Assembly (NCBI RefSeq): GCF_016106035.1
Contig: NZ_JADKPZ010000006.1
Coordinates: 1-64,000, forward strand
Source: Arcobacter vandammei
GTDB taxonomy: Bacteria > Campylobacterota > Campylobacteria > Campylobacterales > Arcobacteraceae
DNA length: 64,000 nt
Direction: 5' to 3'
Below the pieces are notes generated by a model that saw nothing but the letters and a program-made list of their open reading frames with translations, ran no database searches and had not been told where the DNA came from. This document shows, one piece after another, positions 15,286 through 17,763 of this stretch. Numbering within the stretch: the stretch's first letter is position 1; every line of letters starts with the position of its first letter. A program made the translations under genes and the position numbers.

Positions 15286-17535
15286 TTAGAATTTCATATT
15301 CATAGCAACACTATATCTTCTACCATCTAAAACATTTGAGTTACCATCATCTGTAACATCTTTATTTGCTATATTATAAATACCAGCATTAAAACTTAGA
15401 TTTTTATCATATTTATAAACAGCACCTAAATCAACAAATGTATAAGAAGGTGTTTTTGTAGTTTTAATTTTACCTGTTTTTACACTACTTCTTTCAGTTC
15501 CATTATTTCTATATATATATGTTGTATCTTCTGAGTTAGAACCAGCCGTTTCACTTCTATAATTTACTTGTGTCCATAATAATAGTTTAGAAGTAGCATC
15601 AAAATCAATTCCAGCATTAAACATATGTTTAGATAGATTATTTAATGCATATCCTTTATAAATACCAGTTTTTTGTTCACTGTCTGTATATGTATATGAG
15701 TGTCTATATTTTAGATTTTCTAAAATATACCAATCTGTTGTAAGTTCTATACCTTTGATTTCTGCTTTATCAACATTTTCGTAAAATTTCACCCCACCTG
15801 GATAATTTTCACCTTTATAATCATACATTCTAGTTCCATCTGAATTATATGCATCTGTTGTTTGAACTTTATTTTTATAGTTTGTTTGGAATAACATCAA
15901 ACTTCCACCAAGTCCTAAATCAGAATTATCATAAGCAATTCCTGCTTCATAGTTTACAGATTTTTCTGGTTTTAAATCAGGATTTCCAACCATAGCAATA
16001 GCAGGACCTCCACCACCAGAAATTCCAGCAAAATTAGAAGCAGCTTGTCTTAAGCTAGGTGCTTTATATCCAGTTGTTACTCCACCTTTTAAGTTTAAGT
16101 TATCTGTTAAACTATAAACAGCATAAGCTTTTGGAGTAAATTCACTACCAAAATCCTCATTTTTATCATATCTACCACTTAAAGTTAAAGCTAAATCATC
16201 AGTTACACTCCAAGTATCTTCAGCAAATAAAGCCCATTGGTATCTATCCATTTTAGTAATTGAAGTATCTGTTACACCATTTACTTTAATAGCATTTGTT
16301 GCACCATCTTCAAGATTCTCTTTTTTATAATTTGCACCAACAGTTAAAGAGTTTGTATCAAAAAAGTAAGTCCCTTGAGTATTTAGAGTCAAGGTATCCA
16401 TTTCTATACTATTTCCTGTTGTTGCATTTGCTCTAGTCGGATTTTTTGATTTTTCATAAGTTAAATATGAATTTACTAATACTTTATCATATTTTGCTTC
16501 ATGAGCAATATTATAATCATAGTTTATTGATTTTTGATATGATTTTGTATTATCAGTTTGTGCATAATGTGTCAATACTTGTTTAGACCAACCATTAACT
16601 GCTCTTCCCCAAGCCATTTCAGATCTATCAACAAGATAATAATTATCACCACTTTTAATATAATCTTTTCCACCAATTGATGTAGTAGTTGTGCCACTTA
16701 TTTCATTCTTTGCTGCTATACTTTTACCAGGATTTGAAGTTCTTTCTTGAACTTTATAGTTGTATCCTGCTGTTATAGTGTTATGTTCATCAGGAGTTAA
16801 TATAACTTTCCCACCAACATTTGTTCTTTTATAATCTGGGTCTGAACCAGCTTTTAAAGCTCCACTACTTTTATAATCACTCTCATCTGTATTTAAAAGA
16901 CCAGCTGTTAATTGAACTGATAATAAATCTTTTACTACTGGAACATTTACAAATGCACTAACATTTTGTGAGTCATTATTTACTTTATTTGAAGAGTCTG
17001 CTTTTAAATACTCCAAATTTATATTTGCAGTTACTTTATCTGAGTGTTTTTTTGTAATAATATTTATAACTCCACCCATTGCATTACTTCCATAAAGAGC
17101 AGATGCAGGTCCTCTAATAACCTCTATTCTCTCAATAGCTTCAAGTGGTGGCAGGAAATTTATAGGATTTCCTGCATGGCTTCCATTCGGACTAAATGCT
17201 TGATTATCTTGCATTGGTTTTCCATCAACCATATATAAAGTATAATCAGCACTCATACCTCTTATAGAGATAGATTGATTTGAACCACCACCATTTACAT
17301 AAACACCTGGTACATTCTTAAGTACATCTGTTACATCTGTATATGATTTTTTTTCGATTTCTTCAGCTGTAATAACTGAAATTGAAGCAGCAGCATCTGC
17401 AATATTTTGCTCATATCCACCAGCAGTAGTTACAACTTGAACTTCATCAAGTTTTGTAGTTTCATTGGCACTTAGAAGTGTACCCCCCCCCGCAAGTAAA
17501 ATTGCAGAAACAGACATCGCTAGTCTTATTTTCAT
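15286..17535 (-). CDS. TonB-dependent outer-membrane receptor, probably phase-variable
   Basis: A 749-residue outer-membrane transporter of the FepA/CirA siderophore type. A signal peptide ends near LLSANE, and a TonB-box-like segment (LDEVQVVTTA) follows. The plug domain has SISIRGM and RGPASALYGSNAMGGVINI, then comes a beta-barrel ending in the terminal phenylalanine MNMKF. The ligand is unknown; iron-siderophore uptake is likely because a Fur-like site lies upstream. I prefer the ATG at 17535, 9 nt after AGGA, over the ATG at 17541. Nine consecutive G bases lie in the signal-peptide codons (LLAGGGT), so slipped-strand frameshifting could switch the gene off. In this sequence the frame is open. 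Confidence 0.92.
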   Translation of the reverse strand: MKIRLAMSVSAILLAGGGTLLSANETTKLDEVQVVTTAGGYEQNIADAAASISVITAEEIEKKSYTDVTDVLKNVPGVYVNGGGSNQSISIRGMSADYTLYMVDGKPMQDNQAFSPNGSHAGNPINFLPPLEAIERIEVIRGPASALYGSNAMGGVINIITKKHSDKVTANINLEYLKADSSNKVNNDSQNVSAFVNVPVVKDLLSVQLTAGLLNTDESDYKSSGALKAGSDPDYKRTNVGGKVILTPDEHNTITAGYNYKVQERTSNPGKSIAAKNEISGTTTTSIGGKDYIKSGDNYYLVDRSEMAWGRAVNGWSKQVLTHYAQTDNTKSYQKSINYDYNIAHEAKYDKVLVNSYLTYEKSKNPTRANATTGNSIEMDTLTLNTQGTYFFDTNSLTVGANYKKENLEDGATNAIKVNGVTDTSITKMDRYQWALFAEDTWSVTDDLALTLSGRYDKNEDFGSEFTPKAYAVYSLTDNLNLKGGVTTGYKAPSLRQAASNFAGISGGGGPAIAMVGNPDLKPEKSVNYEAGIAYDNSDLGLGGSLMLFQTNYKNKVQTTDAYNSDGTRMYDYKGENYPGGVKFYENVDKAEIKGIELTTDWYILENLKYRHSYTYTDSEQKTGIYKGYALNNLSKHMFNAGIDFDATSKLLLWTQVNYRSETAGSNSEDTTYIYRNNGTERSSVKTGKIKTTKTPSYTFVDLGAVYKYDKNLSFNAGIYNIANKDVTDDGNSNVLDGRRYSVAMNMKF
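17483..17491. repeat. homopolymeric C9/G9 tract in the receptor signal-peptide codons
   Basis: Nine C on the plus strand (nine G in the gene), the only G/C homopolymer of this length I saw in this very AT-rich window. Long G tracts are the classical contingency loci of Campylobacterota. A change of one base would frameshift the gene about 17 codons after the start. Confidence 0.9.
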
Positions 17536-17582
17536 ATCCATTCTTCCTTTTTTTTGTTTTTTTAATTTCGAATAAAATTTCT

Positions 17583-17608
17583 AAATAGTTTTAGGAGAAA
17601 AACTATTT
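17583..17608 (-). promoter_or_regulatory. stem-loop in the 5' leader of the receptor gene
   Basis: AAATAGTTTT with AAAACTATTT, a perfect 10 bp stem around 6 nt, between the Fur-like site and the ribosome binding site. It would be in the mRNA leader and may affect stability or translation. Confidence 0.4.
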
Positions 17609-17631
17609 AATAATTATTATCAATATTGATA
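17609..17631 (-). promoter_or_regulatory. Fur-box-like operator
   Basis: Two abutting palindromes, AATAATTATT (17609-17618) and TATCAATATTGATA (17618-17631), together look like the GATAAT-type Fur hexamer array. The position upstream of a TonB-dependent receptor supports iron regulation. The AT-rich background makes chance matches possible. Confidence 0.45.
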
Positions 17632-17763
17632 AAAATTGATGGAATGTTAATAAAATAAACTTAAAATTAAGTAAAACCGATAACAATTATTAAAATTTAT
17701 TAGAATTTTCTCTTTAATACTTGTAATATAACCTAACTTATTACTTCTAAATATTATTTTATA

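Follow-up and report, generated by a model that had tools for sequence, protein, structure and literature searches.

The window analysed here, a stretch of 64,000 nucleotides from Arcobacter vandammei, carries on its minus strand (15286..17541) a gene for a CirA/IrgA-like TonB-dependent outer-membrane receptor of 751 amino acids, which is in frame with a run of nine G near its beginning and probably starts at its second ATG (17535). Pfam places the Plug domain at residues 48-158 (PF07715, 112.7 bits) and the barrel at residues 308-724 (PF00593, 198.2 bits), both far above cut-off, and the pair of domains that marks a TonB-dependent receptor is thus present; among solved structures, the colicin I receptor Cir comes closest (E = 6e-77). 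These domain and structure matches bear out the assignment made in an earlier note, which had read the gene as a TonB-dependent receptor. The best curated relatives are of the IrgA/CirA/CfrA type—the protein nevertheless stays below the curated equivalog cut-offs for catecholate siderophore receptors (CirA, CfrA, IreA, PRK13513; best 566 of 942 bits), with 294 of 745 bits against the CirA equivalog and 281 of 1200 bits against CfrA, and it is also under the cut-offs for haem/haemoglobin receptors of the HmbR type (TIGR01785 and TIGR01786, 235 of 317 and 236 of 324 bits). That phages or bacteriocins might use it as a receptor is something we infer only from its Cir-type relatives.

The plus strand reads A-CCCCCCCCC-G at 17482-17492, with a C run of exactly nine at 17483-17491, and hence G9 on the coding minus strand. 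The tract lies at the end of the hydrophobic stretch of the signal peptide (coding region MKIRLAMSVSAILLAGGGTLLSA, 17467..17535, minus strand; the cleavage site is putative), where it runs from the end of codon 17 to codon 20 and so spans the end of Ala17 to Gly20 (Ala-Gly-Gly-Gly) in MDMKIRLAMSVSAILLAGGGTLLSANETT. It is the sole run of at least seven G or C within the 64-kb window; 7-mer G/C matches number 3 there, against 0.15 expected from dinucleotide shuffles. First- to third-order Markov models predict only 0.0006-0.004 runs of at least nine per window and 0.02-0.13 per 2.2-Mb genome, and pattern searches found five in the genome to which the window belongs, plus one G8. Codon usage points the same way: GGG makes up just 6.3% of the glycine codons in the window, so a Gly-Gly-Gly written as GGG-GGG-GGT has a probability of about 0.0015. 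The repeat is therefore far longer than chance would give. The earlier note had placed nine G at these positions, inside a signal peptide, had thought them very unlikely by chance and had proposed a search for other G tracts in the genome; position, placement and rarity all stand, and the search yielded the further tracts just mentioned.

The consequences of a change in tract length were computed from the predicted frames, with residues counted from the likelier start, Met3. Among G7-G12, only G9 and G12 leave the gene open, giving 749 and 750 residues, and G7, G8, G10 and G11 lead to a stop after 23, 20, 24 and 21 residues—close to the figure of about 20 codons that the earlier note had anticipated. 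Because of where the tract lies, gain or loss of a single unit is thus predicted to switch expression. We propose that the run is a slippage site that would gain or lose a G during replication: with nine (or 12) G the receptor would be read through, with 8 or 10 it would be OFF, and at lengths other than the open ones translation would end within the signal peptide or shortly behind it, leaving the outer membrane with no receptor. Any one culture would then contain receptor-positive and receptor-negative cells side by side, and the benefit may be escape from phages, bacteriocins or antibodies, weighed against the cost of a lost iron source. For scale, a G9 tract of C. jejuni changes length about 1.2e-3 times per division (PMC8224891 Table 2), and in a model with C. 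jejuni rates the lengths would spread over 8-10. The G9 run in the receptor is very probably a random on/off switch.

Two elements of the leader deserve mention. A Fur-box-like sequence, TGATAATAATTATTA, lies upstream of the receptor on the minus strand (17608..17622) with one mismatch to TGATAATnATTATCA; the match is weak, as about two with at most two mismatches are expected per window, and a Fur box at this place is only suggestive. Beside it lies an inverted repeat, AAATAGTTTT-TCTCCT-AAAACTATTT (17583..17608, minus strand), with a similar loop upstream of many Aliarcobacter receptors. Inverted repeats whose CTCCTA loop is conserved while the stems differ occur upstream of receptors in L010-L013, L019, L021, L025, L026, L113, L124, L126 and L140. 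At first sight the leader repeat resembled a covarying RNA, and it is possibly a regulatory RNA hairpin; an Rfam search with it gave no match, and no convincing covariation was seen in a MAFFT alignment, in which the loops were misplaced.

Tracts at the same place as that of the window gene, which we call the short class, were found in nine receptors of two species. One is a second receptor of the same genome (G000:C3), with a near-identical signal peptide and a G8 at the same position; it is OFF, with a frameshift at residue 20 and 691 intact codons behind the tract. Another is the orthologue in A. vitoriensis (G030, so named because its locus sequence is identical to the Aliarcobacter vitoriensis CECT 9230 record), a species placed in the same genus as the window genome in the genome collection used; this gene has a G9 in a shifted register and is also OFF, with 702 codons intact behind the tract. 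In most of the OFF copies of the short class the frame stays open for 650-700 codons behind the tract, which is the only break. The homologue in a further genome (G012) has the same signal peptide, but an A interrupts the run (GGGAGGGGG), so that the tract would be stabilised, and the orthologues in G014, G027, G015, G003 and others are without a tract. Across 104 genomes of the family, the signal-peptide tract pattern of the window gene occurs only in its own genome and in A. vitoriensis, and it is thus not widely kept. Tract length differs among paralogues and orthologues of the receptor, that is, between genes and species. The earlier note had taken the tract as a signature of phase variation, a reading that is well supported by homologous tracts of differing lengths, in ON and OFF registers.

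The two tract-bearing receptors of the window genome are closely similar at their 5' ends only. Over positions -140 to +160 relative to the ATG at 17535 (17376..17675, minus strand), a stretch of about 300 bp that reaches from the promoter region to the TonB-box region, the window gene and its paralogue on C3 are 82-88% identical (84% overall); just outside, identity is 45-62%, and the receptor bodies have 30-39% of residues in common. These values come from strict alignments with shuffled baselines. Other receptor pairs of the same genome reach 46-57% over the same interval, so a common promoter and signal-peptide function alone does not give 84%. Comparison with the A. vitoriensis orthologue yields the opposite picture, 58% identity at -80..+39 and 77-92% from +40 on. 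The simplest reading is that receptors have exchanged the 5' switch or that it has been homogenised among them; purifying selection acting strongly on just the 5' part seems less likely, since the stretch includes intergenic bases and the orthologue differs there. The tract-bearing stretch looks like an interchangeable module that stands before quite different receptors.

A. vitoriensis has about 29 tract-bearing receptors. Its genome holds 33 G8-G10 tracts, 29 of them within receptor genes: seven belong to the short class and 22 to a second class, whose N-terminal part is longer and whose tract lies 61 codons into the gene. From its layout this N-terminal part was considered as an STN signalling domain—an idea that we dropped, as Pfam STN scored 13.6 of the 28.4 bits needed in one homologue. 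All 22 second-class receptors (in L104-L135) are headed by a cassette of their own, roughly 450 bp long and with a poly-G, which extends from the palindrome TTTTGTTACnAAAAGTAAC to the TonB box. Relative to the tract, 16 of these loci have an identity of 77-98% (medians of 60-bp steps) between about -300 and +120, and this falls to 43-52% farther out on both sides; for the class, the median amino-acid identity of the bodies is 26%, against 90% DNA identity in the module. Both the short and the second-class cassette stop near the TonB box, which was recognised by eye.

Where start and tract are both visible, as in 21 of the 22 second-class receptors of A. vitoriensis, the tract is a G9 in 20 and a G10 in one, and all 21 are OFF. 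Under independent slippage of the C. jejuni kind, the probability of 20 G9 in 21 would be about 5e-7 and that of all being OFF 0.0025. This uniformity could have arisen in the assembly, if cassettes that are nearly identical collapsed there, or it could reflect slower slippage or selection for the OFF state; the A. vitoriensis assembly is built from short reads, and several of its contigs end in second-class cassettes. In the closed genome G014, three second-class paralogues have a G10 (ON), a G8 (OFF) and an interrupted run, GGGGGAGGG (OFF); they are the clearest sign in our data that tract length changes and sets the frame. One intact second-class copy, in G003, is without a tract.

The remaining tracts of the window genome lie in varied surroundings. 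A G9 at G000:C5:6902-6910 (L136) lies between the formyltransferase-like part and the GNAT acetyltransferase part of a single open reading frame and connects the two in frame; the gene resembles one for the modification of surface sugars and is likely, from its sequence, another contingency gene of this genome. A G11 shortly precedes the start of a lipoprotein-like gene (G000:C15:9409, L137), a second G11 is found where a histidine kinase gene has its 3' end (G000:C26:6230, L138), and a further G9 has no obvious long gene around it (G000:C53:109626, L139). In other species of the genus, poly-G runs occur in or at the end of an OafA-type acyltransferase and a sugar acetyltransferase-like gene (L044 in G013 and L049 in G023; annotation by eye). 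In two other receptor genes of the window genome (G000:C1:172046-172380 and 174318-174649), frameshifts or stops interrupt the frame; these were considered as further switches and set aside, as the one break inspected has no repeat.

How else might the tract be explained? It could be a long glycine run that arose by chance or through codon usage, somewhat more mutable than its surroundings and with no selected role in switching, and it fits this account that the pattern is confined to two of the 104 family genomes and that most orthologues are without a tract. We nonetheless think it very unlikely: five runs in one genome stand against an expectation of 0.02-0.13, the glycine codons used are rare, and the position of the tract is repeated in nine short-class receptors of two species and in 22 of the second class. 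The differences in length might instead be marks of decay, with the OFF copies being pseudogenes and the ON copy simply a functional gene. The two broken receptors on C1 tell us that receptor decay does occur in this genome; the long intact frames behind most short-class OFF tracts, 650-700 codons with no other break, argue against simple pseudogenes, and we give this account just as little credence.

A programmed frameshift, in which the ribosome or the RNA polymerase slips on the G run, could express receptors with OFF-length tracts at a low level, and tract length would then be held constant. The single out-of-frame register of G9 in 20 of 21 A. vitoriensis receptors is what such an arrangement predicts and is unlike a free slippage equilibrium; however, this uniform length may be an effect of assembly, the tracts of the G014 paralogues differ (G10, G8 and interrupted) and one of these genes is in frame, and the window gene, already open with its nine G, requires no slippage. 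We hold this explanation to be extremely improbable. With a high degree of confidence, we regard the G9 as a slipped-strand phase-variation switch within a self-contained 5' cassette that would have been placed by recombination before different receptors. Slippage at the tract, reversible switching, its benefit and recombination as the route of spread are what we infer. Such a cassette would bring along the promoter region, the leader, the signal peptide, the tract and the TonB-box region, and receptors that acquired it by recombination would be switched independently of one another. Extending this to Aliarcobacter, we lean towards a picture in which portable cassettes (promoter, leader, export signal and poly-G switch) have been moved or homogenised by recombination before unrelated TonB receptors, which would create a random combinatorial repertoire with most receptors OFF at any time.

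Several known systems share features with the one proposed here. The opa genes of Neisseria and the hop genes of H. pylori carry repeats of CTCTT or CT units in the leader peptide, which head close paralogues; as is proposed here, a repeat in the signal peptide switches each copy of a multi-copy outer-membrane family, whereas the G runs described above stand before receptors with bodies that resemble one another by only about 26-39%. Another parallel is offered by HmbR and HpuA of Neisseria meningitidis, where a poly-G likewise lies in the reading frame of an outer-membrane receptor for an iron source (PMC3352162); hmbR is ON at 9G, and isolates carry 7-15 G according to the same source. These are haemoglobin receptors of another lineage, however, and the window protein is below the haem receptor family cut-off; in its available parts, the source describes no 5' cassette common to many receptors (PMC3352162). 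The poly-G contingency loci of C. jejuni belong to the same phylum, have the same kind of tract and come with measured slippage rates (PMC8224891), but many of their tracts lie in genes for surface sugars, the capsule and LOS (PMC8437040), and not in TonB-dependent receptors as here. Our literature search, which reached few subscription papers and is thus weak evidence, found no phase-variable TonB receptor in Campylobacterota.

Within the family, the window gene can be compared with irgA of A. butzleri (Abu_0726), also a CirA/IrgA-type receptor. The homologue in G003, a genome taken as A. butzleri from gene position, sits where irgA is expected, with 66% identity in the best-matching part, and is putatively irgA; unlike the window gene it has no tract, and the genome as a whole showed no G/C tract of nine or longer. 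This agrees with the A. butzleri RM4018 genome, which was reported to be without poly-GC tracts; the 2007 paper made this absence, and hence that of contingency genes, a distinguishing trait (PMC2147049). The sequences examined here would extend slipped-strand phase variation to Aliarcobacter, whose best-studied species was reported to lack such tracts, with the shared cassette as an added feature.

Close relatives of A. butzleri thus have poly-G tracts on surface receptors related to irgA. Surveys of Arcobacter score irgA as present or absent by PCR (PMC10336517, PMC9235176); if irgA-type receptors are switched, presence by PCR would say little about expression. As loci are generally investigated one by one, the spread of phase variability to new genes mostly escapes notice; a cassette with such sharp limits, present on divergent receptors, would make this process directly accessible.
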